From: Cellulomonas terrae
Lineage (GTDB): Bacteria; Actinomycetota; Actinomycetes; Actinomycetales; Cellulomonadaceae
Assembly: GCF_007990265.1 (NCBI RefSeq)
Contig: NZ_BJWH01000011.1
Location: 1 to 64,000 of the forward strand
Length of the DNA stretch: 64,000 nt
Direction of reading: 5' to 3'
Below are positions 36,017 through 47,676 of this stretch, piece by piece (within the stretch, counting starts at the first letter, position 1; the number at the start of each line of letters is the position of its first letter). Under the pieces are notes generated by a model. The model did no database searches and was not told where the DNA came from. It worked only from the letters and a program-made list of their open reading frames with translations. The translations under genes and the position numbers were made by a program.

Positions 36017-37540
36017 ATGGCCAGCACGACGCATCCCGTCCCGGTCGAGGAACGTCCCGCCCCGCACGCGCCGCCCGGGCGGCTGTGGGCGGGCGCCCGG
36101 CGCTGGCTGCCGTGGGCCGCCGTCCTCGCGCTGGCCGCCGTCGCAGGGCTGGTCGGCGGGCAGGTGGCACCGCTCGGCCCGGTGTCCACGCTCGGTGCTC
36201 TGGTCGTGATGGCGACCGGAGCCGGGCTCGGTGTCGTCGGCGGGCGGGTGGTCGGCACGGCGTGGGTGGTGATCCCGCTGGCGGCCGCGTACCTCGCCGC
36301 CGTCGAGCTCGCCCGCAGCGACGTGCTCCTGCCCACGGTGCACGACGTCCGGGTCGACTCGATCTGGGGGCTGCTCGCACTCGTGCTCGGGCGCGGGGTG
36401 CACGGCGTCCTGCTCGTCCTGCCGATGGTCCTCGGCGCGCGCGTCGGCGCCGGCGCGCCAGGGCGCGTGACCACGACGGTCCTCGGCGTGCTCACCTTCG
36501 GCCTCGCCGTGGTGGTCGCGCTGCCGGCCTCCACTCCGCCCGTGCGCGACGCCGACGGGGACGTGGTGCCCGGCAGCATCGCCACGCTCGACACGGTGCT
36601 CCTCGGTGGTGATCCGCACACCGTCCTGGTCAGGGCCGCGGACCCGGACGCACCCGTGTTGCTCTACCTGTCGGGCGGCCCGGGCCAGTCCGACCTCGCG
36701 CTGGCCCGGGCGCTGTCCGAGCCGTGGGTCGACGACGTGGTCTTCGCGACCTTCGACCAGCGGGGCAACGGCACGTCCTACGCCGCGCTCCTGCCGACCG
36801 AGGAGGCCACGCTCGACCGCGCGGTCGCCGACGTCATCGAGCTGACCGAGTACCTGCGCGCTCGCTTCGGCGAGGACAAGGTCGTGCTCCTGGGGGAGTC
36901 CTGGGGCACGATCCTCGGCGTCCTGGCCGTCGAGCGGCGGCCCGACCTGTTCCACGCGTACCTCGGCAGCGGGCAGATGGTCGACGTCACCGAGACCGAC
37001 CGACGCATCTACCGTGACCTCGTCGCCTACGCGGCCCGGACCGACGACGCTGCGACGGCCGCGCTGACCGAGCGGACCGGTGAGCCGCCGTACGCCGACC
37101 TGCCCTGGTCGAACGCCGACGTCATGCTGGCCTACGACCACCTGTACGGCGCGTACACACCGTCCCAGGGCTACCTGGACCGCGGTGCCGCCTCCGGGCT
37201 GGACGCGTTCGGGATCCGGGGCCCCGAGTACCGGCTCGTCGACAAGGTCGACGTGCTCCGGGGCCTCATCGACACGTTCTCGGTGATGTACCCGCAGCTT
37301 CAGGGTCTGGACCTGCGGCGCGAGGTGCCGCGGCTGGAGGTCCCGGTGTTCGTGCTGGACGGGGCGGCGGAGCTCGACGGTCGGCGCGACCTCGCCCTCG
37401 AGTGGTATGCCGCGCTGGACGCACCGACGAAGAGGCTGCTGACGTTCGAGGGTGCCGCGCACGCGGTCGCGTTCGAGCAGGCCGACGCGGTCGACCGGCT
37501 GCTGGCGGACGAGGTCCTTCCCCTGGTGGGGGAGCGATGA
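36017..37540 (+). CDS. Membrane-anchored alpha/beta hydrolase (proline iminopeptidase-like)
   Basis: A 507-residue protein with four to five hydrophobic segments in residues 30-170, followed by an alpha/beta-hydrolase domain from about 190. The oxyanion signature LSGGPGQSD is typical of the S33 proline iminopeptidase group, the nucleophile elbow is GESWGT with Ser295, and a late His lies in GAAHAVAF. ATG 36017 follows GGAGGCAGCC. The membrane topology suggests that the hydrolase domain is outside or at the membrane face, acting on peptides or esters. It overlaps the next gene by four bases. Confidence 0.82.
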   Translation: MASTTHPVPVEERPAPHAPPGRLWAGARRWLPWAAVLALAAVAGLVGGQVAPLGPVSTLGALVVMATGAGLGVVGGRVVGTAWVVIPLAAAYLAAVELARSDVLLPTVHDVRVDSIWGLLALVLGRGVHGVLLVLPMVLGARVGAGAPGRVTTTVLGVLTFGLAVVVALPASTPPVRDADGDVVPGSIATLDTVLLGGDPHTVLVRAADPDAPVLLYLSGGPGQSDLALARALSEPWVDDVVFATFDQRGNGTSYAALLPTEEATLDRAVADVIELTEYLRARFGEDKVVLLGESWGTILGVLAVERRPDLFHAYLGSGQMVDVTETDRRIYRDLVAYAARTDDAATAALTERTGEPPYADLPWSNADVMLAYDHLYGAYTPSQGYLDRGAASGLDAFGIRGPEYRLVDKVDVLRGLIDTFSVMYPQLQGLDLRREVPRLEVPVFVLDGAAELDGRRDLALEWYAALDAPTKRLLTFEGAAHAVAFEQADAVDRLLADEVLPLVGER

Positions 37541-37944
37541 CGACGACGCGCGGTGCGTGGACGCTCGCCTGGTGCGGGATCGCGGGGGCGGCGGTCGCGA
37601 ACGGTGGCCTGCGGGAGCGCGTCCTCGTGCCGCGGCTCGGGACGCTGCGGGCGCACCAGGTGTCCACCGGCGTGCTGGTCACGACGATCGTCGCGACGGC
37701 GTCGGTGCTGCAGCGGAGGCACCCGCTGCCCGACCGCACGACCGCCCTGCGGGTCGGGCTCGGGTGGAGCGCGGGCACGCTGGCGTTCGAGCTCGGTGCC
37801 GGAGCCGTGCGAGGCCTTCCGCTGTCCGACCTCGTCGCCGACTACGACCTGCGGGCCGGCCGCCTGTGGGGGTTCGTCCCGCTGACGATGGCGGTCGCCC
37901 CGGTGCTGGTCGAGCGGATCAGCCGACGTCGGCCGGCAGGATGA
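37537..37944 (+). CDS. Small membrane protein of unknown function
   Basis: A 135-residue protein with three or four hydrophobic stretches (WTLAWCGIAGAAVANGG, VSTGVLVTTIVATASVL, VGLGWSAGTLAFELGAGA, and LWGFVPLTMAVAPVLV). No enzyme motif is visible. Its ATG overlaps the stop of the membrane hydrolase gene (ATGA), so the two products are probably made together. Its 3' end overlaps the convergent DeoR-family gene by 26 bases, an unusually deep antisense overlap. Confidence 0.7.
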   Translation: MTTTRGAWTLAWCGIAGAAVANGGLRERVLVPRLGTLRAHQVSTGVLVTTIVATASVLQRRHPLPDRTTALRVGLGWSAGTLAFELGAGAVRGLPLSDLVADYDLRAGRLWGFVPLTMAVAPVLVERISRRRPAG

Positions 37945-38737
37945 CCTCGACGCCCGCGGACTCCAGCGCGGCCGCCAGGTCCGCTGGCGGCGGTGCCTCG
38001 GTCACCAGGTAGTCGGCACGGCCCAGCTCCGCGATCTGCGCGAACAGGCGGCGGCCGAACTTCGTCGAGTCGGCGAGGACGGCGACCTTCGCCGAGCGGT
38101 CCATCATGGCGCTCATCATCGCGGCCTCGCCGAGGTTGCTCGTCGAGTAGCCGGCGTCGGCGCTCACGGCACCGACGCCGATCAGCGCGAGGTCGCAGCG
38201 GATGTCGCGGTCGGCGCCGTTCTCCGTCGGGAACGCGACGGCCCCGATGGTGCCCTGGGCGCTGAGCCGGACGACGCCCCCGAACACGTACAGGTCGCGG
38301 AACGCCTGCGGGCTGATCTCCGTCGGCAACCGCAGCGAGTTCGTCGCGACGGTGAGGTCGCGGTGCTCGGCGAGGTGGCGCGCGACGGCCAGCGTCGTGG
38401 TGCCCGCGTTGATCATGAGCGACGCGCCGTCGCGCACGAGGCCGGCCGCGAGCGCCCCGATCTGGTCCTTCGCCGAGGTCTGGATCCGCAGCCGGACGTC
38501 GACGCCGGTGTCGGGGCGGGGGACCGCCTGCGGGCTGATCGCTCCACCGTGCGTGCGGATGAGGACGCCGTCGGCGTCGAGGGCGTCGAGGTCGCGGCGG
38601 ATGGTGTCGGGGGAGACGTCGAACCGCTCGGCCAGGATCGCCACGGTCACCTGTCCCTGCTCGGCCACGTAGGCCGCCAGATCGGCCTTGCGGCCCGCGG
38701 GCAGGCGGCGTGCGGAGCCGTCGGAGGTCGCAGACAT
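37919..38737 (-). CDS. DeoR/GlpR-family sugar-operon regulator
   Basis: A 272-residue repressor with the DeoR helix-turn-helix in residues 15-70 (VTVAILAERFDVSPDTIRRDLDALDADGVLIRTHGGA) and a C-terminal phosphosugar-sensing domain (LMINAGTTTLAVARHL, the KDxxGxxAA-like DQIGALAA, and DLALIGVGAVS). ATG 38737 begins a typical DeoR N-terminus. It diverges from the sugar ABC/aldolase operon, with a dyad near its own promoter and another over the operon's transcription start. A phosphorylated hexose from that pathway is the expected inducer. Confidence 0.9.
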   Translation of the reverse strand: MSATSDGSARRLPAGRKADLAAYVAEQGQVTVAILAERFDVSPDTIRRDLDALDADGVLIRTHGGAISPQAVPRPDTGVDVRLRIQTSAKDQIGALAAGLVRDGASLMINAGTTTLAVARHLAEHRDLTVATNSLRLPTEISPQAFRDLYVFGGVVRLSAQGTIGAVAFPTENGADRDIRCDLALIGVGAVSADAGYSTSNLGEAAMMSAMMDRSAKVAVLADSTKFGRRLFAQIAELGRADYLVTEAPPPADLAAALESAGVEVILPADVG

Positions 38738-38904: not shown

Positions 38905-38955
38905 TTGACGGCGCAGTTTCTCGGGTCTACGTTGGCGGAAACACGCAAAAGTGCG
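38905..38955 (+). promoter_or_regulatory. Promoter and overlapping operator of the sugar operon
   Basis: TTGACG (38905-38910) and TACGTT (38928-38933) are separated by exactly 17 bases, a good housekeeping promoter. The predicted transcription start falls near 38940, and CGCA-AAAG-TGCG (38944-38955) covers the first transcribed bases, an ideal spot for repression. The coding start follows at 39000. Confidence 0.65.
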
Positions 38956-38999
38956 CACACAGTCGCACGAAGCGGCAGGATCTGAGGATGGGGAGAGTC

Positions 39000-40289
39000 A
39001 TGGGCAAGGGCGCTCACGTTGGACGCTTCATTGCACTCACCGGTGTCGCATCGCTCGCACTCGCGGCGTGCTCCGGTGGGGGCGGCTCGGACAGCGGAGG
39101 CACGGGCGGGGAGGACGGCGGCGACGTCACCCTCGAGTTCTCGCAGTGGTGGGAGCCCGAGCTCCCCGACGGTGCGTTCCGCGAGCTGATGGACCAGTTC
39201 GAGTCGGAGAACCCGGGCATCACGGTCGACCTGCTGTCGGGGCCGTACGCCTCGACGAAGGAGCAGGTCGTCGCCGGCGCCGCCGCCGGGACGATGTCCG
39301 ACGTCGTCGGCCTGGACGGCGCATGGGTGAGCGACTTCGCCGACCAGGGCGCGATCACGGACCTGTCCGCGGTGATGTCCGAGGCGGGCTACGACGAGTC
39401 GCAGCTGGCCAGCCAGGTCAAGGTGGACGACAGGACGTACATGATCCCCGTCGTGAACTTCGTGTACCCGATGTTCACCAACGACGACCTGCTCGCCGGC
39501 GCCGGCGTCACCGCGCCGCCCACCACGCGTTCCGAGTTCGCGGACGCGGCGGCCAAGACCACGAGCGAGAACACGTACGGCTGGATCCTCCCGCTGTCGC
39601 TCGAAGCCCCCAACGGCATCCAGAACGACGTCATGTCCTGGGTGTGGGCGTCCGGTGGGTCGATGCTCGACGGCGGGCAGCCCGCGCTGACCGACAACGA
39701 GGACGTCACCAGCGCCACGGACTTCATCCAGGGCCTCTGGGACGACGGCGTCATCGCACCCGGGTCGTTCACCATGAAGGAGCAGGACAAGGTCGAGGAG
39801 TTCAGCAACGGCCGGGTCGGCATGATGATCGACTCGCTCGCCCACGTGAACCTCATCCGCGAGTCCAACCCGGACCTGAACTTCAGCATCTCGGCGATCC
39901 CGGCCGAGGACGGGTACACCGGTGAGCGCGGCATCCCCTACGCCTCGTGGGGCATCGGCATCGCCGAGAACTCCGAGCACAAGGAGGAGGCGTTCAAGCT
40001 CGTCGAGTTCCTGATGAGCGAGGACGTCAACAGCGAGCTCTCCTCGATCGCCAACGCCTTCCCGGGCAACACGGCCTCCGTCCCCGACTTCGTCGAGGAG
40101 GACGAGCTGTTCGGCACCGCGTTCGAGATCTACCAGTCCGGCTTCCCGGCCAACGAGTTCACGGGCCTGCCCGTCGCCGAGCAGCTCATGCGGGACTTCG
40201 GTGAGGAGTTCCAGAAGGCGCTCGACGGCCAGCAGTCGATGCAGGACGCGCTCGCCGCGGCCCAGACCAAGTGGGAAGAGGAGTTCTAG
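39000..40289 (+). CDS. Sugar ABC transporter solute-binding lipoprotein
   Basis: A 429-residue family 1 binding protein, extracellular and lipid-anchored: the signal peptide FIALTGVASLALAAC ends in a lipobox cysteine near residue 25, followed by a Gly/Ser linker. EFSQWWEPELPDGAFRELMDQF opens the mature fold. ATG 39000 has GGGGAGAG directly upstream; an in-frame ATG at 38988 is possible. It is the first gene of the DeoR-controlled operon. The ligand is presumably a hexose or hexoside catabolised by the aldolase, kinase, epimerase and isomerase genes downstream. Confidence 0.9.
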   Translation: MGKGAHVGRFIALTGVASLALAACSGGGGSDSGGTGGEDGGDVTLEFSQWWEPELPDGAFRELMDQFESENPGITVDLLSGPYASTKEQVVAGAAAGTMSDVVGLDGAWVSDFADQGAITDLSAVMSEAGYDESQLASQVKVDDRTYMIPVVNFVYPMFTNDDLLAGAGVTAPPTTRSEFADAAAKTTSENTYGWILPLSLEAPNGIQNDVMSWVWASGGSMLDGGQPALTDNEDVTSATDFIQGLWDDGVIAPGSFTMKEQDKVEEFSNGRVGMMIDSLAHVNLIRESNPDLNFSISAIPAEDGYTGERGIPYASWGIGIAENSEHKEEAFKLVEFLMSEDVNSELSSIANAFPGNTASVPDFVEEDELFGTAFEIYQSGFPANEFTGLPVAEQLMRDFGEEFQKALDGQQSMQDALAAAQTKWEEEF

Positions 40290-40308
40290 GCCACCCAGCC
40301 CGGAACCC

Positions 40309-40340
40309 GGGCCGCGCCGGAGGCACGACCGGCGCGGCCC
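40309..40340 (+). terminator. Intercistronic stem-loop after the binding-protein gene
   Basis: GGGCCGCGCCGG pairs perfectly with CCGGCGCGGCCC around an 8-base loop, 20 bases after the stop. Such loops between binding-protein and permease genes usually act as partial terminators or mRNA stabilisers, giving more binding protein than channel. Confidence 0.7.
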
Positions 40341-40367
40341 GCCCCCTCAGGAGAGAGCCGCGAGCCC

Positions 40368-41330
40368 ATGTCACAGACAGCCACTCCCGCGAAGGCGGGA
40401 CCCGTGAAGGCCGCACCGCCGCCCGGTGCCGACTCCGCCCGGACCCGCACCATCGGCCGGATCAAGCGGACGCTGACGCCCTACGGATTCCTCACCCCGA
40501 CCGGGGTGCTGCTGATCATCCTGATGATCACGCCGATCATCATGGTCGTCAGCTACTCGCTGCTCGACCGGGTGATCACCAACAAGAACCCCGCGTTCGT
40601 GGGCTTCGAGAACTACCTCGAGGTGCTCACCGACCCGGTGTTCTTCACCGCGGTGCGCAACACGCTGGTGTTCACCATCTCGTCGGTCGTCGTGCACTTC
40701 GTCATCGGCCTGGCGTTCGCGCTCATGCTCAACTCGCCGCTGCTGAAGGACCGCACGAAGGCGTTCTTCCGGGTCCTGTACATCCTGCCGTGGCTGTTCA
40801 CGGTGGCGATCGTCGCGGTCCTGTGGCGGCTGCTGCTCAGCCCGAACGGCGTCGTCAACTACCTGCTCGGGTCGACGGGGATCACCGACGGCTCGACGGA
40901 GTGGCTGGCCAACCCGTCGACCGCGCTCGCCGCCGTGACGTTCATCAACATCTGGTCCGGCTACCCGTTCTTCATGATCTCGCTGCTGGCCGGCCTGCAG
41001 GGCATCCCGCGCGAGCTCTACGAGGCCGCGAAGGTCGACGGCGCCGGCGTGGTGGCCCAGTTCCGCAACGTCACGCTCCCGCAGCTGCGGCCGATCATCA
41101 TCTCGATGGCGCTCCTGGACTTCATCTGGACGACACAGCAGTTCGCCCTGATCTGGATGACCACCGGCGGCGGGCCCATCAACTCCACCGAGGTCCTCTC
41201 GACCTTCACGTACAAGCTCGCGTTCACCGAGTACGAGTTCTCCGTCGCCTCCGCGTCCGCGGTCCTCGTGCTCCTCATGTCGATGGTTCTCGCGTTCTTC
41301 TACGTGCGGCACCAGAAGGCGAGGGACTGA
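40368..41330 (+). CDS. Sugar ABC transporter permease (MalF/UgpA-type)
   Basis: A 320-residue inner-membrane subunit with about 35 cytoplasmic residues, then six predicted helices. The EAA loop is ELYEAAKVDGAGVVAQFRNVTLP near residues 218-240, and the segment WMTTGGGPINSTE is typical of the family. An AGGAGAG lies about 14 bases upstream of ATG 40368, rather far, so initiation may be modest. One base separates it from the next permease. It forms the channel with that subunit. The operon encodes no ATPase. Confidence 0.9.
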   Translation: MSQTATPAKAGPVKAAPPPGADSARTRTIGRIKRTLTPYGFLTPTGVLLIILMITPIIMVVSYSLLDRVITNKNPAFVGFENYLEVLTDPVFFTAVRNTLVFTISSVVVHFVIGLAFALMLNSPLLKDRTKAFFRVLYILPWLFTVAIVAVLWRLLLSPNGVVNYLLGSTGITDGSTEWLANPSTALAAVTFINIWSGYPFFMISLLAGLQGIPRELYEAAKVDGAGVVAQFRNVTLPQLRPIIISMALLDFIWTTQQFALIWMTTGGGPINSTEVLSTFTYKLAFTEYEFSVASASAVLVLLMSMVLAFFYVRHQKARD

Positions 41331-41331
41331 G

Positions 41332-42216
41332 ATGACCACGCTGGCCACCCGCCCCACCACGTCCGAGCAGCCCGCGCTGCGCACCCCGCCGAAGAAGACC
41401 AGCCAGCGGGCCGCGCTCGTCGTGGCTCTGGTCCTGGGTGCGTGCTTCGCCGCGCTCCCCGTGGTCTGGATGCTCTCCAGCTCGTTCAAGACCAACCCGG
41501 AGATCTTCGAGTTCCCGCCGCGCCTCGTCACGCCGGGCTTCTCGTTCGACGCGTACACGACGATCCTCACCGACCCGACCAAGCTGCGGTTCTTCCTCAA
41601 CAGCTACGTCATCGCCCTGTCGGTGACCGCGCTGTCGCTGATCGTCGCGGTGCACGCCGCGTACGCGTTCAGCAGGTACGAGTTCTGGGGCAAGAAGACG
41701 ATCAACGTGATCGTCGTGTCCGTCCAGGCGGTCCCGCCCATCACGCTGCTGATCCCGTACTTCGGCCTCGTCGTCGCGCTCAAGCTCTACAACACCTATC
41801 AGGGCCTGATCCTCACCTACATGGTGTTCACGCTGCCCTACGCGATCATCATGATGACGGGCTATTTCAACACCCTCCCGAAAGAGCTGGACGAGGCCGT
41901 CAAGGTCGACGGAGCCGGTCCGCTCACCGCCCTGTGGCGCATTCTCATGCCCATCTCCGTGCCCGGTCTGGTGTCCGTCGGCGTGTACACGTTCATGATC
42001 TGCTGGAACGAGTTCCTGTTCGCCCTGACCCTGACCAGGACAGAGGACATGCGCACGGTGCCCATCGGCATCCAGCTCCTCATGGGCCAGCACTCGTACG
42101 AATGGAACGAGATGATGGCCATGAGCATTCTCGGCTGCATTCCCGTTCTCATTCTCTTCCTCTTCTTCCAGCGCTACTTCATCGGGGGGATGACCGCCGG
42201 CGCCGTGAAGATCTAG
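41332..42216 (+). CDS. Sugar ABC transporter permease (MalG/UgpE-type)
   Basis: The second channel subunit, 294 residues, six predicted helices, EAA loop at about residues 185-205 (ELDEAVKVDGAGPLTALWRI) and the C-terminal GGMTAGAVK typical of MalG-like proteins. It begins one base after the stop of its partner. The late part of the gene uses several less GC-rich codons (ATT, TTC) compared with its surroundings, a mild local drift. The aldolase gene follows after 46 bases, so transport and catabolism are cotranscribed. Confidence 0.9.
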   Translation: MTTLATRPTTSEQPALRTPPKKTSQRAALVVALVLGACFAALPVVWMLSSSFKTNPEIFEFPPRLVTPGFSFDAYTTILTDPTKLRFFLNSYVIALSVTALSLIVAVHAAYAFSRYEFWGKKTINVIVVSVQAVPPITLLIPYFGLVVALKLYNTYQGLILTYMVFTLPYAIIMMTGYFNTLPKELDEAVKVDGAGPLTALWRILMPISVPGLVSVGVYTFMICWNEFLFALTLTRTEDMRTVPIGIQLLMGQHSYEWNEMMAMSILGCIPVLILFLFFQRYFIGGMTAGAVKI

Positions 42217-42262
42217 ACCCCCCTCCCTGAGAAACACCCACACAGGAAAGTTGACACACATC

Positions 42263-43129
42263 ATGTTGATGAACGGCCGAGACCTGCTCGCGGTGGCGAA
42301 CGAGAACTATTTCGCCATCCCCGCCTTCAACATCAGCGACTACGCGATGGGCAAGGGGATCTTCGAGATCTCCGAGAAGCTGAACGCCCCGCTCATCGTC
42401 GCGATCCACCCCGACGAGGTGGCCCACCTGGGCCGCGACGCCCTGCCCGCGCTGATCCAGCGCGCGCACCGCTCCTCGGTCCCCGTCGCCATCCACTGGG
42501 ACCACGGCGGCTCCTACGAGCAGGTGCTGGAGGCCATCCAGTACGGGTTCACCTCGGCCATGATCGACGCGTCGATGGAGCCCTTCGAGGACAACGTCGC
42601 GATCACCGCGAAGGTCGTCGAGACCGCCCACGCCGTCGGTGTCTCCGTCGAGGGTGAGCTGGGCACGATCGGCAAGCTCGACGAGCAGGCCGAGGACGGC
42701 GTGCTCATGTCGCAGATCGCGTTCACCGACCCGGCCGAGGCCGTCGAGTACGTCCAGCGCACCGGCGTCGACAGCCTCGCGATCGCCATCGGCACCGCGC
42801 ACGGCCTGTACCCCAAGCACGTCACCCCGGAGCTCCGGCTCGAGCTGCTCCAGCAGATCAAGGCCCTGCTGCCCATCCCGCTGGTCCTGCACGGCGGCTC
42901 CGGCAACCCGGACGGCGAGATCGGCCAGGCGGTCAAGCTCGGCGTGAACAAGATCAACATCTCCAGCGACATCAAGGTCGCGTACCACGACAAGATGCGC
43001 GAGGTCCTCGCGGACACCAGCCTGCGCGAGCCGCTGCTCATCCAGCCGCCCTGCATCGAGGCCATGCAGGAGGTCGCGGCGCAGAAGATCCACCTGTTCG
43101 ACGCCGCCGGCAAGGCCGACCTGTACTGA
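42263..43129 (+). CDS. Class II fructose-bisphosphate (or tagatose-bisphosphate) aldolase
   Basis: A 288-residue zinc aldolase of the FbaA/GatY/KbaY family, cleaving a ketohexose 1,6-bisphosphate to dihydroxyacetone phosphate and glyceraldehyde 3-phosphate. Visible ligands are Asp80-His81 in HWDHGG (catalytic Asp and zinc His), Glu131 in VEGELG, His180 in GTAHGLYP and His210 in VLHGGSG. The length and NKINISSDIK segment suit the short GatY/KbaY branch. ATG 42263 is preferred; TTG 42251 sits too close to AGGAAAG. It is followed by an ADP-dependent sugar kinase. Fructose versus tagatose substrate cannot be told from sequence. Confidence 0.9.
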   Translation: MLMNGRDLLAVANENYFAIPAFNISDYAMGKGIFEISEKLNAPLIVAIHPDEVAHLGRDALPALIQRAHRSSVPVAIHWDHGGSYEQVLEAIQYGFTSAMIDASMEPFEDNVAITAKVVETAHAVGVSVEGELGTIGKLDEQAEDGVLMSQIAFTDPAEAVEYVQRTGVDSLAIAIGTAHGLYPKHVTPELRLELLQQIKALLPIPLVLHGGSGNPDGEIGQAVKLGVNKINISSDIKVAYHDKMREVLADTSLREPLLIQPPCIEAMQEVAAQKIHLFDAAGKADLY

Positions 43130-43162
43130 GCACGTCCTGACGCGAGAGAGGGCAGTCGATCG

Positions 43163-44353
43163 ATGAGCACGACGTTCGTGCTGGGCATGGGTGGGACGGT
43201 CGACTACGAGATCCGCTGGGACCCGGCCGTGCTCGAGCAGCTCGCCGCCGAGCTCGGGATCGGCCCGGACGACCTCGACCGGATGGCCCCGGTCGACTCC
43301 GTGCGCGACCTCGTGCGGACCCTGCTCGCGTTCGTCCGCGACGGTGTCGGGGGAGAGCGGTTCGTCGCCTCCTCCGGCATCGTCGAGGAGTTCGCGGCAC
43401 GGTTCTCCAAGGAGGTCACGCTCGGGGGGACGTGCGTGCGGGCGGCGATCGCGATGGACGTGCTCGGCATCCCGAGCACGATGCACCTCGTCTCGATCGA
43501 CGACAACGTCCGCCGGCTCCTCCCGGCGTCCGTCGACTACGTGTCGAGCGCGGTCGAGGACACCCTCGACCCGCACCTGATCGTGCAGTACCCGGCGGGC
43601 GCACGCGTGCGCGTCGGTGGCGTCGAGCTGGTGGCGCCGCACCCGAACCGCGTCATCTTCGCCAACGACCCGCCGCACCGCGAGCTGCGCATCGCCCCGG
43701 ACCTGCCCGACGCCCTGCGCGCGGCCGACGTCTTCCTGCTGTCGTCGTTCAACGTCATCCAGGACCCGGCGGTGCTCGAGTCGCGTCTGGCGCAGGTGCG
43801 CGACGCGATGCGGGCCCTCCCGCCGGACGCGCTCGTCGTCTTCGAGGACGCGGGGTATCACGTGCCGGCGCTGAGCCGGCGCGTCCGTGACGAGATGGTG
43901 TGGTGCGCGGACGTCTACAGCCTCAACGAGGACGAGATGCAGGCCTACCTCGGCCGGCCGGTGGACCTGCTCGACGCGCCGACCGTCGCGAAGGCCGTCC
44001 GGGAGCTGCACGAGGTCGTCCCGGCACCGACCCTCGTCGTGCACACCAAGTACTGGGCGCTGGCGGTCGGGCAGCGGGCGACCTCGCTGCGGTCCGCGCT
44101 CGTCGGCGGGATCACGATGGCGAGCACCCGCTACTGGATGGGCGACGGGTTCACGCCCGAGGACTACGCGGCGACCGCCTCCCTGACCCCGGGCACGACC
44201 GCCCAGCAGCTCGTGTCCGACGTCGCCGACCTGCTCGGTCCCGACGCGTGCGTCGTTCCCGCCCTCGACCTGAGCGGCGTCGCCACCCCGACGACCATCG
44301 GGCTCGGCGACTCGTTCGTCGGCGGCTTCCTCGCTGCGCTGGACCTGCCGTGA
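43163..44353 (+). CDS. ADP-dependent glucokinase/phosphofructokinase family kinase
   Basis: A 396-residue protein that I assign to the ADP-dependent sugar kinase family (ribokinase-like fold) known best from archaea. It opens with FVLGMGGTVDYEI, where the conserved Asp binds sugar; TLGGTCVRAAIAMDVLGIP is the sugar-site glycine loop; and the C-terminal GLGDSF (380-385) is the GxGD catalytic motif with base Asp383. Archaeal homologues phosphorylate glucose, fructose 6-phosphate, or both, using ADP. It lies between the aldolase and a DUF4432 gene and overlaps the latter by four bases, so a hexose or hexose-phosphate substrate is likely. Family assignment fairly sure; donor and acceptor inferred. 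Confidence 0.72.
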   Translation: MSTTFVLGMGGTVDYEIRWDPAVLEQLAAELGIGPDDLDRMAPVDSVRDLVRTLLAFVRDGVGGERFVASSGIVEEFAARFSKEVTLGGTCVRAAIAMDVLGIPSTMHLVSIDDNVRRLLPASVDYVSSAVEDTLDPHLIVQYPAGARVRVGGVELVAPHPNRVIFANDPPHRELRIAPDLPDALRAADVFLLSSFNVIQDPAVLESRLAQVRDAMRALPPDALVVFEDAGYHVPALSRRVRDEMVWCADVYSLNEDEMQAYLGRPVDLLDAPTVAKAVRELHEVVPAPTLVVHTKYWALAVGQRATSLRSALVGGITMASTRYWMGDGFTPEDYAATASLTPGTTAQQLVSDVADLLGPDACVVPALDLSGVATPTTIGLGDSFVGGFLAALDLP

Positions 44354-45294
44354 CGGGCTGGGGCGAGCTGACGGACGACGGCCGCGTCTCCCGGCCGGAC
44401 GCGCTCGCGAGCGTGGACGACCGTGGCGGGGTCATCGCGGTGCGCCTCGCGGGCGGGCTCGCGTTCGACGTCCTGCCGGGCCGCGGGCTGGACCTGGGCG
44501 CGACGTGGTGGGGCTCGACACCCGTGGCGTGGCGGTCCCCGAACCCCGTCGACCCCGGCCCGGGGCGGGACTGGGAGGCGCGCTTCCTCGGCGGACTCCT
44601 GGCCACGTGCGGCCCCGACAACATCGGCGAGCCGCGCGGCTCGTCGGGCCAGCACGGCACCCACCACCTGACGCCCGCGACCGACGTGCACTGGTCACGC
44701 GAGCGGGTGGGCGACGGGTGGCAGGTCTGCGTGACGGGCACGGTCGCGCACACCTCGCTGGGCGGTCCACGGATCCTCGTCGAGCGGTCGGTCGTGGCGT
44801 CCACGGGCACGCCCGCCGTCGAGGTCAGCGACGTCGTGCGCAACGTCGGGGACCGGTCCGTGGGCGTCCCGCTGCTCTACCACGTCAACCTCGGCGCACC
44901 CTTCCTGCGACCGGGCGCCCGCCTGGACGTCGACGCCGACGAGTGGGTCGTCCGCGAGCCGCTCCCGGCAGACCGCCACCCGCTGGTCACCCCCGAGCCG
45001 GCGCCCGGCCTCGTCCCCGTGGTCGCCGAGCACCTGGGCGTGCGCGAGGCACGGGCAACGCTCGTCGGCGACGACCTCTTCCCCGACCTCGTCGTGACCT
45101 GGACCGGCGCGACCCTGCCCCGGCTGTGCACGTGGAGCTGGCCCGCGCGCGACGCGTACGTGCTCGGAGTGGAGCCCACGAACGCCCCGCTGTTCGGTCC
45201 CGAGCGGGACCTCCCGCACGCCGGGGCCCCCGTCCTCGTCCCCGGCGCGACCTGGCGCACGGGTGTCCGCATCGCCGTCGAAGGGATGTCATGA
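44350..45294 (+). CDS. DUF4432 family protein (aldose epimerase-like)
   Basis: A 314-residue protein resembling DUF4432, a galactose-mutarotase-like beta-sandwich family thought to act on aldoses. Supporting segments are FDVLPGRGLDLGATWWGSTPVAW near residues 40-62, TCGPDNIGEP, the H-x-x-G-like GQHGTHHLTP, LLYHVNLGAPFL and EPTNAPLFG near the end. No signal peptide. GTG 44350 overlaps the kinase stop and the stop overlaps the isomerase start, both by four bases. In this operon it could interconvert sugar anomers or epimers before isomerisation or phosphorylation. Activity is not established for the family. Confidence 0.78.
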   Translation: MTGWGELTDDGRVSRPDALASVDDRGGVIAVRLAGGLAFDVLPGRGLDLGATWWGSTPVAWRSPNPVDPGPGRDWEARFLGGLLATCGPDNIGEPRGSSGQHGTHHLTPATDVHWSRERVGDGWQVCVTGTVAHTSLGGPRILVERSVVASTGTPAVEVSDVVRNVGDRSVGVPLLYHVNLGAPFLRPGARLDVDADEWVVREPLPADRHPLVTPEPAPGLVPVVAEHLGVREARATLVGDDLFPDLVVTWTGATLPRLCTWSWPARDAYVLGVEPTNAPLFGPERDLPHAGAPVLVPGATWRTGVRIAVEGMS

Positions 45295-46265
45295 AGCCGC
45301 TGTACCTGCCCGCCAACCAGCCGGCCGACAGGTTCTACGCGGGAGGTCGCCAGATCGCCGAGCTGCGCGGGACCGGCCCGTCGGCCAGCCACGAGCCGGA
45401 GGACTGGGTGGGTTCGGCGACGTCGGTGTTCGGCCACGAGCCCGTCGGGCTGACGGTGCTGCCCGACGGCCGGTTGCTCCGCGACGCCATCGAGGCCGAC
45501 CCGGTGGCGTGGCTCGGCGCCGAGCACGTCGCCGCGTTCGGGTCGGACCCGGCACTGCTGGTCAAGCTGCTCGACGCCGGCCAGCGCCTGCCGGTGCACG
45601 CCCACCCCGACGTCCCGTTCGCCGCGGAGCACCTGGGGCTCGCGCACGGCAAGACGGAGGCGTGGGTCGTGCTCGAGCCCGCCCGGGTGCACCTCGGATT
45701 CGCGCGGGACGTCGGCGTCGACGAGCTGGCGCGCTGGGTCCGGACACAGGACACCGACGCGATGCTCGGCGCGATGCACGTCCTCGACCTCGCCGCCGGC
45801 GACGCTGTGCTGGTCCCCGCGGGGCTCCCGCACGCCATCGGGGAGGGCGCGCTCGTCGTGGAGCTGCAGGAGCCGACCGACCTGTCGATCCTGCTGGAGT
45901 GGTCGGGGTTCCCGATCGACGGGGCCACCGACGGACACCTGGGACTCGGGTTTGACGTCGCGCTCGGCGCCGTCGACCGTCGCGGGTGGTCCGCCGACGA
46001 GATCGCGCGCCTGCGCGGTGCGACGGCGGCGTCGTCGGGGGACCTGCTGCCCGACGCGGCGGCGTTCTTCCGCGTGGAGCGCTGGACCGGTCCGCAGGTG
46101 CTCGACGCGGGCCTCGCCGTGCTCGTCGTGGTCGACGGTGCGGGCACGCTCGACGGGTCCTCGGCCCTGCGTCGAGGGCGCACGGTGCTCCTGCCCGCCG
46201 CTGCGGGACCGGTCGCGCTGGACGGGGACCTCCAGGTCGTCGTCTGCCGCCCGCCTCGTCCCTAG
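45291..46265 (+). CDS. manA: Mannose-6-phosphate isomerase, class I (ManA-type)
   Basis: A 324-residue zinc aldose-ketose isomerase of the cupin type. Metal ligands are visible as His103 and His105 (LPVHAHPD) and Glu123 (GKTEAW), and the fourth histidine is in PAGLPHAIGEG. The C-terminal cupin is short. It would interconvert mannose 6-phosphate (or another aldose phosphate) and fructose 6-phosphate, feeding the kinase/aldolase pair. As last gene of the operon it overlaps DUF4432 by four bases. Operon paralogues of ManA sometimes act on other aldoses, so the true substrate is open. Confidence 0.85.
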   Translation: MKPLYLPANQPADRFYAGGRQIAELRGTGPSASHEPEDWVGSATSVFGHEPVGLTVLPDGRLLRDAIEADPVAWLGAEHVAAFGSDPALLVKLLDAGQRLPVHAHPDVPFAAEHLGLAHGKTEAWVVLEPARVHLGFARDVGVDELARWVRTQDTDAMLGAMHVLDLAAGDAVLVPAGLPHAIGEGALVVELQEPTDLSILLEWSGFPIDGATDGHLGLGFDVALGAVDRRGWSADEIARLRGATAASSGDLLPDAAAFFRVERWTGPQVLDAGLAVLVVVDGAGTLDGSSALRRGRTVLLPAAAGPVALDGDLQVVVCRPPRP

Positions 46266-46368: not shown

Positions 46369-47676
46369 ATGCTCAACTCACGACAGGCATGGTTAGGAGC
46401 CGGCAGCGCAGCCGTGCTCGCAGCAGGGCTCACCACCTCCGGGATCGCCGGTGGCGGTGACCGCGACGAACGAGACCACGGCCGCGGCGGTGACCGGGCC
46501 GTCGCGAAGAACGTCATCTTCATGGTCGGCGACGGCCTGAGCCTCGCGGCGCGGGACGCCACGCGGCTGGCGACCGTCGGCAAGGACGGGCAGCTGCAGA
46601 TGGACTCGCTGCGGTACGCCGGTTGGACGCACACCGACTCGCTGGACCCGGAGGATGCCGTCACCGACTCGGCCGCCGGCGCCACGGCGTTCGCGGCCGG
46701 CGTTCTGACGTACAACGGCGCGGTGTCGGTGGACGTGAACGGGAACCCGGTCAAGACGCTCCTGGAGCACGCGAAGGACCTGCGCAAGGCGACCGGGCTG
46801 GTCACGACGGCCCAGGTCACGGACGCCACCCCCGCCGCGTTCGGGTCACACGTGCCCGACCGGGGCACCCAGACCGAGATCGCCCGGCAGTTCCTGGAGG
46901 TGACCAAGCCGGACGTCATCCTGGGTGGGGGCGAGGACTGGTGGTACCCCGTGGGCGACCCGGGCGCCTACCCGGACGACCCCGCGGACCCGCGGCCCGA
47001 GGTGAGCAAGAGCACGATCGGCAACCTCGTCGAGCGGGCCGAGGGCCTGGGCTACGACTACGTCAGCACCCCCGGCGAGCTCGCAGCGACGCGGTCCGAC
47101 AAGGTCCTCGGCCTGTTCGCCAACGAGGAGATGTTCGAGCAGTTCCCGGAGGGTCAGGGCGACGAGTACGCCCCCGTGGTGCCGCTCACCACGATGACCG
47201 CCAAGGCGCTCGACATCCTCTCGCGCGACCGGCAGGGCTTCTTCCTGGTCGTCGAGGAGGAGGCCATCGACGAGTTCGCGCACAACAACAACGCTGCTCG
47301 CACCATCCAGGCCGGGCAGGCGCTGGACGCGACCGTGGCGCTGGTCCGCGAGTACGTCGCGAAGCACAAGGACACGCTCGTCGTCGTCGTCGGGGACCAC
47401 GAGACGGGCGGGATGGCGATCGAGAACGTCGACCCGGACGACGAGTCCGGCGACACCGCGAGCACGGACCCCGGGGTCACCCAGAGCCTCGAGGACGGGC
47501 CGTTCCCGATCGCGAACAGCGACCTGGAGTTCACGATCGACTGGACGACGGGCGGGCACACCGGTGCCGCGACCCCGCTGACGGCCGAGGGCCCGCGGGC
47601 CGAGCGACTGGCTCGGGCGCAGGACAACACCGACGTGTTCACGGTGGTCCTGGACGCGATGCGCGGCCGGCGCTGA
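46369..47676 (+). CDS. phoA: Secreted alkaline phosphatase
   Basis: A 435-residue phosphomonoesterase. An N-terminal signal sequence (WLGAGSAAVLAAGLTTSGIAG) exports it; an Arg/Asp/Gly linker follows. Catalytic features are intact: metal-binding Asp55 in MVGDG, nucleophile Ser101 in TDSAAGATA, EEEAIDEFAHNN and VVGDHETGGM for the second metal site, and GGHTGAATPL near the C-terminus. It releases phosphate from organic esters outside the cell. ATG 46369 has a GGGGGA upstream at about 10 bases. It is separated from the sugar operon by 103 bases and is probably independent, ending in a strong terminator. Confidence 0.92.
   Translation: MLNSRQAWLGAGSAAVLAAGLTTSGIAGGGDRDERDHGRGGDRAVAKNVIFMVGDGLSLAARDATRLATVGKDGQLQMDSLRYAGWTHTDSLDPEDAVTDSAAGATAFAAGVLTYNGAVSVDVNGNPVKTLLEHAKDLRKATGLVTTAQVTDATPAAFGSHVPDRGTQTEIARQFLEVTKPDVILGGGEDWWYPVGDPGAYPDDPADPRPEVSKSTIGNLVERAEGLGYDYVSTPGELAATRSDKVLGLFANEEMFEQFPEGQGDEYAPVVPLTTMTAKALDILSRDRQGFFLVVEEEAIDEFAHNNNAARTIQAGQALDATVALVREYVAKHKDTLVVVVGDHETGGMAIENVDPDDESGDTASTDPGVTQSLEDGPFPIANSDLEFTIDWTTGGHTGAATPLTAEGPRAERLARAQDNTDVFTVVLDAMRGRR

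Follow-up and report, generated by a model that had tools for sequence, protein, structure and literature searches.

The ADP-dependent glucokinase/phosphofructokinase (ADP-GK/PFK) family, PF04587, is known mainly from archaeal glycolysis and from the animal glucokinase. E. coli has a kinase, YdjH, together with the PF01116 aldolase YdjI, whose annotation is for a ketose-1-phosphate (octuluronate-1-phosphate aldolase); YdjH is presumably a PfkB kinase, unlike the PF04587 kinase described below. Animal and haloarchaeal ketohexokinases are ATP-dependent, and the haloarchaea then use 1-PFK and FBP aldolase. According to the excerpts of PMC11519228 consulted, animal fructolysis and the haloarchaeal route both convert fructose to fructose-1-phosphate by ketohexokinase, the step that we propose below for a bacterial kinase, and the haloarchaeal enzyme is presented there as the first prokaryotic ketohexokinase with evidence for a physiological role. 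Sulfo-EMP2 (SqvD, SqiK, SqiA) shares with the operon described here an isomerase, a single kinase (yielding a ketose-1-phosphate there and, as we propose below, here), and a class II PF01116 aldolase; it differs in that SqiK belongs to PF00365 and SqvD is FucI-like (PMC9594981, consulted in part), and in that the aldolase of the present operon (type A, below) lacks the arginine of the DPR motif. The occurrence of PF04587 in bacteria as such has already been reported (PMC7948494, consulted in part).

We analyzed a 64,000-nucleotide stretch of Cellulomonas terrae DNA (contig NZ_BJWH01000011.1, positions 1 to 64,000; the window). The analysis supports the presence of a bacterial operon devoted to sugar use, with an ADP-GK/PFK family member at its center. 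An earlier note on this DNA, made from the letters alone, had stated that no characterized bacterial operon of this design was known, and the literature searched below full-text level (PF04587 in Actinobacteria, DUF4432, the combined pathway) likewise held no description of a comparable one. Judged by title and the start of the abstract, the papers found on DUF4432 had nothing on sugar operons.

The operon genes lie on the plus strand. An extracellular solute-binding protein (SBP) of a sugar importer (39000..40289; PF01547, 125 bits; likely start ATG 39000) is followed by ABC permease 1 (40368..41330) and ABC permease 2 (41332..42216), both PF00528, and by a class II, PRK08185-like aldolase (42263..43129; PF01116, 294 bits; likely start ATG 42263). 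Next come the ADP-dependent sugar-kinase family protein, here called type A (43163..44353; ADP_PFK_GK, PF04587, 77 bits, cut-off 27), a DUF4432 protein that is a probable sugar mutarotase (44350..45294; PF14486, 179 bits, cut-off 32.5; E 2e-4 to 3TY1, a "hypothetical aldose 1-epimerase") and a divergent ManA-like protein, a putative free-sugar isomerase (45291..46265). The kinase stop codon overlaps the DUF4432 GTG by 4 bp, as does the DUF4432 stop codon the ATG of the ManA-like gene. The reading frames, gene families and four-base overlaps given in the earlier note were thus all confirmed. No ABC ATPase gene was found among the operon genes, from the regulator through the ManA-like gene. The SBP has as its best PDB relatives binders of maltose, acarbose and sulfoquinovosyl-glycerol, all of them weak matches and too distant to give the identity of the imported sugar.

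Just beyond the range 39000..46265, a DeoR/GlpR-family regulator gene (37919..38737, minus strand, 5' end approximate; PF00455, 133 bits; PF08220, 64 bits) is divergent from the operon, and a deoR homologue adjoins the importer genes at most loci compared. A TGCGCA...CGCA palindrome, TGCGCACACAGTCGCA (38952..38967, no strand assigned), is a candidate DeoR operator. Similar palindromes lie upstream of the SBP gene at four other loci (L005, L006, L007 and L008), which is suggestive only: of 11 intergenic regions inspected, that of the window counted, 5 have one.

We found that the importer, the aldolase and the kinase are co-conserved in Actinobacteria of patchy distribution. The aldolase gene immediately precedes the kinase gene, in the same orientation, at 40 of the 41 loci of a first set, the sole exception being a Spirochaete (L036), and in all 31 actinobacterial regions of a second set of 36, two of which hold only the type-B pair described below. 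This adjacency exceeds chance. The other two genes are optional. A ManA homologue was found at no fewer than 17 of the 41 loci and 16 of the 36 regions, and DUF4432 at 10 or more of the 41 and 2 or more of the 36; these counts are lower bounds, since contig ends cut some loci, and gene labels in the 36-region set come from HMMs built from close relatives of the window. At 22 of the 27 Microbacterium-titled loci, a subset of the 41, no ManA homologue lay within the sequence covered. Of the five genes expected to travel together, the importer, aldolase and kinase do so, ManA does so in part and DUF4432 does not; either of the latter two as an obligatory operon member was rejected, both being optional.

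The kinase is a genuine member of its family, as had been supposed. It has the ADP-GK/PFK fold over its full length and shares with archaeal and eukaryotic PF04587 enzymes the GXGD catalytic Asp, NXXE, the HXE glutamate and the nucleotide Arg and His; its catalytic and nucleotide-site residues are kept. It differs from these enzymes in being encoded in a bacterial sugar-import operon, in length (396 residues, compared with about 450-470 there, at 15-20% identity), and in several residues. Among 76 aligned type-A rows (81 rows less 5 of type B; window included; one Spirochaete genome present twice, as L036 and L076; rows not all independent, because named and other genomes may overlap), the catalytic D383, E258 of NXXE, E228 of HXE, R163 and H294 are kept in all 76 and N255 in 74. 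The HXE motif is incomplete in type A (Glu 76/76, His 0/76), and both residues are present in 5/5 type-B kinases.

In AncMsPFK, six residues contact the phosphate of F6P: N32, N34, E90, K179, N181 and Q244 (PMC7948494, in the part consulted). Most of these are replaced in the type-A kinases. N32 is G in 72/76 rows and remains N in 2, both from one genome, the Spirochaete L036/L076; N34 is kept in 8/76, so that the N-x-N of the archaeal and eukaryotic kinases is mostly gone; K179, N181 and Q244 are kept in none, with D in 61, H in 76 and N in 73 rows, respectively. Only the E90 equivalent, E65, is generally kept (73/76). H138 and D169 of the kinase agree with glucokinases and not with PFKs. The R212-to-D169 change is weak evidence, because R212 of AncMsPFK itself makes no contact to the phosphate (PMC7948494, same part). 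R93, invariant in 76/76 type-A rows and a further difference from archaeal and eukaryotic members, belongs to the GG motif of the sugar site, level with or next to AncMsPFK I119, and could bind an anionic group. Positions were mapped with HMMER alignments that are gap-free at N32, N34, N181, R206, R212 and Q244, with a gap beside I119.

The aldolase retains the metal and catalytic motifs DH, HG and HGGS. At the DPR position, whose arginine we take to be the C6-phosphate ligand of class II FBP/TBP aldolases, the window has REPLLIQPP, and no arginine is found there in any of 70 actinobacterial type-A aldolases, window included (69 REP, 1 SEP). This count leaves out one piece of L087, which is split into two ORF pieces in different frames, and an unrelated second aldolase of L069. 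DPR is present in GatY, KbaY, a host aldolase (L098) and 5/5 type-B aldolases; YdjI, 36% identical to the window aldolase, likewise lacks the arginine. Loss of DPR is not unique to the operon, as a second host aldolase (L099, judged by eye, its row in the residue count being unaligned) also lacks it. Aldolases of the Spirochaete phylum are mixed: L072-L074 have REP, L075 has neither, and L076 keeps the Arg. The REP arginine, three residues before the DPR Arg position, might take over its role. The literature searched, including the part of PMC8119897 consulted, held nothing usable on what the DPR arginine does. That the aldolase requires a bisphosphate, as argued earlier, is not true of PF01116 as a whole: SqiA acts on sulfofructose-1-phosphate (PMC9594981, in the part consulted), as YdjI by annotation acts on a ketose-1-phosphate, and the operon aldolase lacks the DPR Arg.

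Five genomes contain a second, divergent kinase-aldolase pair (type B), and pairs are in tandem in L066, L068 and L095. The type-B profile aligned chiefly to the C-terminal part of solved kinases. Type-B loci carry an SDR gene (5/5) and a sulfatase gene (4/5), assigned by Pfam in L068 and L070 and by tblastn in the others. Duplication of the pair as a unit suggests that each aldolase has its own kinase.

The ManA-like protein is called divergent because its TIGR00218 score, 51 bits, is under the cut-off of 116.2; it was also aligned to 1ZX5 and 1QWR. In a family alignment of 14 of the ManA homologues found, H105, E123 and H181, presumably the metal-site His/Glu/His motifs of ManA, are invariant. 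Thirteen of the 14 have Leu where the Spirochaete protein has Arg, and B. subtilis ManA has Arg at or beside this site, inside a one-residue alignment gap. The Spirochaete L036/L076 thus retains Arg in both its aldolase and its ManA-like protein. In L061 and L064 the isomerase slot holds a PF07221 D-mannose-isomerase-like (AGE) protein, a member of a free-sugar enzyme family, whose gene overlaps the kinase gene (425 and 421 bits to D-mannose isomerase, NCBIfam cut-off 600). A DhaK gene lies 84, 119 and 91 bp downstream in L063, L065 and L069; DhaL/DhaM-like genes, named by eye only, come after it. The host genome has two PF00365 PFKs, one ManA over cut-off, 13 ROK matches and two further PF01116 aldolases. 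What the analysis shows is the order and families of the genes, the fold of the kinase, the patterns of residues, the co-conservation and the replacement in the isomerase slot.

We infer each enzyme reaction of a one-kinase route, (aldose to) ketose to ketose-1-phosphate to DHAP plus an aldehyde, which we give slightly better than an even chance; its leading candidate sugar is mannose/fructose. The importer, with its ATPase supplied from elsewhere, would take in a monosaccharide or small glycoside, and DUF4432, where present, would speed anomer exchange. The ManA-like protein would isomerize free aldose to ketose, a role that would fall to the AGE protein in two genomes and to no nearby gene in many. 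The kinase, probably with ADP, would phosphorylate the ketose probably at C1, much as ADP-PFK acts on F6P, but its substrate would bear no 6-phosphate. The aldolase without the DPR arginine would split the ketose-1-phosphate into an aldehyde and DHAP. With mannose/fructose as the sugar, that aldehyde would be glyceraldehyde, whose phosphorylation the adjoining DhaK-type kinase of three genomes could assist, and the route would be a bacterial counterpart of animal fructolysis. We counted several observations against the ketose-1-phosphate route: the GK-like kinase residues would suit a 6-kinase too, R93 may bind an anion, the REP arginine may substitute, L099 has also lost DPR, and the Spirochaete-phylum aldolases are mixed. 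The sub-cut-off D-mannose-isomerase match and the 22/27 Microbacterium loci at which ManA was not found count against it too.

Those GK-like residues, H138 and D169, would fit a 6-phosphate route, in which an ADP-dependent manno/glucokinase makes hexose-6-phosphate, ManA converts it to F6P, a PFK of the host turns this into FBP, and FBP is split by the operon aldolase. M6P is the normal substrate of ManA proteins, and both PFKs and a full ManA are present in the host. We nevertheless judge this route improbable, given the aldolase without DPR arginine, the constant aldolase-kinase partnership in a gene order with no room for a PFK between importer and kinase, the replacement of ManA by a free-sugar-family protein in two genomes, and the Leu that the ManA-like proteins carry where relatives carry Arg. 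The earlier note had proposed a complete upper glycolysis spending ADP, in which a bifunctional ADP-GK/PFK would catalyze the phosphorylations on either side of ManA and the aldolase would cleave FBP. The kinase family fits, as does the fact that a single operon encodes a class II aldolase, an isomerase and one kinase. However, five of the six F6P-phosphate contact sites are generally replaced, the aldolase DPR Arg is lost and the kinase-aldolase pair is doubled as a unit, and on these grounds the proposal was rejected; with ManA also not found at 24/41 and 20/36 loci (some cut by contig ends), we regard it as very unlikely.

The same one-kinase logic might instead serve a 6-deoxy sugar or one substituted at position 6, a pentose such as lyxose/xylulose, or a rare ketose that is taken up directly, with the sulfatase-linked type-B pair for a sulfated sugar. 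The optional isomerase, the SDR and sulfatase genes and DPR-bearing aldolases of type-B loci, and an SBP without a close solved relative are consistent with such a substrate; the mannose-isomerase-like slot replacement and the DhaK neighbors favor mannose/fructose, and we hold this alternative to be possible though doubtful. The ketose-1-phosphate reading can be stated more broadly, as a tentative proposal that we would not yet expect to hold in full: Actinobacteria and some Spirochaetes may have a family of ADP-dependent ketose 1-kinases, each with its own class II ketose-1-phosphate aldolase as partner. This would be a bacterial "fructolysis" run on ADP for sugars of the mannose type, and the paralogous pair linked to a sulfatase would serve sulfated sugars.

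The type-A and type-B pairs offer a natural experiment on the joint change of specificity of a kinase and an aldolase. If the ketose-1-phosphate route is correct, the ADP-dependent kinase family would gain a dedicated bacterial sugar operon and a new acceptor, in a sugar route with one phosphorylation only.

The operon lies on the + strand of the window. It begins with a solute-binding protein gene (ATG at 39000), followed by two ABC permease genes, a class II aldolase gene (ATG at 42263) and genes for the PF04587 kinase, a DUF4432 protein and a ManA-like protein, in that order. The kinase and DUF4432 genes overlap by 4 bp, as do the DUF4432 and ManA genes. A DeoR gene (about 37919-38737) is divergent from the operon, and there was no ATPase gene among the operon genes. 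Directly 3' of the ManA gene is an ORF (46388-47676, start approximate) that we take, from a motif, to be alkaline phosphatase-like. By eye, an ORF upstream of deoR (36017-37540) has membrane-like segments at its N-terminus and a part that resembles alpha/beta-hydrolases.

We found that the importer, aldolase and kinase are the invariant core of the operon. Among relatives of the window kinase, the aldolase gene was immediately upstream of the kinase gene in 40 of 41 loci, and this was so in all of the actinobacterial regions examined (31/31). ManA (17/41 loci; 16/36 regions) and DUF4432 (10/41 loci; 2/36 regions) were only partly conserved, counts affected by loci that end at contig ends. The nearest named relatives found were Cellulomonas strains (kinase identity up to 92%). 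The spread was patchy, as the six other same-genus genomes among those listed in the order-level sample had no PF04587 match. PF04587 was present in 30/297 genomes sampled from the order (host counted), in 1/296 from the phylum (the host itself) and in 5/392 sampled around a Spirochaete genome (that genome counted).

The window aldolase belongs to PF01116; its best-matching family was PRK08185 (376 bits versus a cut-off of 405). In alignments with solved FBP aldolases, GatY and KbaY, the DPR motif was replaced, mostly by REPN or REPL. The DPR arginine, presumably a ligand of the C6 phosphate, was missing from 70/70 actinobacterial aldolases of the window type (type A; 69 REP, 1 SEP). DPR is also missing from YdjI, a PF01116 enzyme annotated as acting on a ketose-1-phosphate without a 6-phosphate. 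SqiA is another PF01116 enzyme known to have such a substrate (PMC9594981).

A second, divergent kinase-aldolase pair (type B) was present in five genomes, all of which also had type A. The type-B kinases scored 28-41 bits against the window-type HMM, and each had its own aldolase (364-378 bits). In three regions (L066, L068, L095) the type-A and type-B pairs stood in tandem after one importer; in two (L070, L071) the type-B pair was in a separate operon. This joint duplication of kinase and aldolase argues that each aldolase is served by one kinase. DPR was kept in 5/5 type-B aldolases, an SDR gene adjoined the kinase in 5/5 regions, and a sulfatase gene adjoined deoR in 4/5. With the L070 proteins as queries (E 1e-20 and >100 bits), neither SDR nor sulfatase was found in the other loci examined. 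We infer that type B may handle an anionic C6 group, perhaps a sulfated one, and these loci might encode a sulfated-sugar pathway. By eye, the sulfatase had the motif CTPSR, and no signal peptide was evident.

The Spirochaete genome (loci L036 and L076) keeps N32 in the kinase (AncMsPFK numbering; one of the residues contacting the F6P phosphate), an arginine at the aldolase DPR position and the ManA arginine. In this single genome, where the aldolase gene is not adjacent to the kinase gene, the kinase, aldolase and ManA-like protein covary as would be predicted by a 6-phosphate reading. Other members of the cluster are FGGY and PfkB kinases together with a KduI/IolB protein. At L076 (G296:C7, 7367-19117), genes for the ADP-type kinase, ManA-like protein, class II aldolase, FGGY, PfkB, KduI/IolB-like and AraC proteins lie together. 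The other four genomes with PF04587 in the sample taken around it were mixed: the aldolases of L072-L074 have REP, and that of L075 neither.

The ManA-like protein scored under the ManA cut-off and kept the metal motifs. Leu was found in 13/14 aligned ManA-like sequences at the place of the Spirochaete Arg; B. subtilis ManA has Arg at or beside it (one-residue gap in the alignment). In L061 and L064, the kinase-overlapping gene instead encodes a D-mannose-isomerase-like AGE protein (PF07221, 305 and 300 bits; NF051846, 425 and 421 of 600 bits, respectively). AGE-family mannose isomerases, a name taken from the profile, presumably act on free sugars, which argues that isomerisation would come ahead of phosphorylation. 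A DhaK gene starts 84, 119 and 91 bp downstream of the operon in L063, L065 and L069; all three products matched PF02733, and that of L063, the one compared with NCBIfam dhaK1, passed it. DhaL-like ORFs were seen by eye after DhaK in L063 and L069.

Searches of the host genome gave two phosphofructokinases (PF00365), 13 matches to ROK, a single ManA above cut-off and, besides the operon's own, two PF01116 aldolases, so the host's upper glycolysis probably does not depend on the operon. One of these aldolases (L098) keeps DPR. In the other (L099, G000:C11:85948-86784), the DPR arginine was absent by eye, and the adjoining gene encodes what we take, from a motif, to be a HAD-type hydrolase. L099 is possibly a further non-bisphosphate aldolase.

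The model best supported by the evidence is one in which the importer would take a sugar into the cell, the free sugar could be isomerised (an optional step), the PF04587 kinase would phosphorylate the ketose once, at C1, with ADP the likely donor by family, and the class II aldolase would split the product into DHAP and an aldehyde. The literature searches made turned up no account of an operon of this kind. Mannose/fructose is the leading but unproven candidate sugar.
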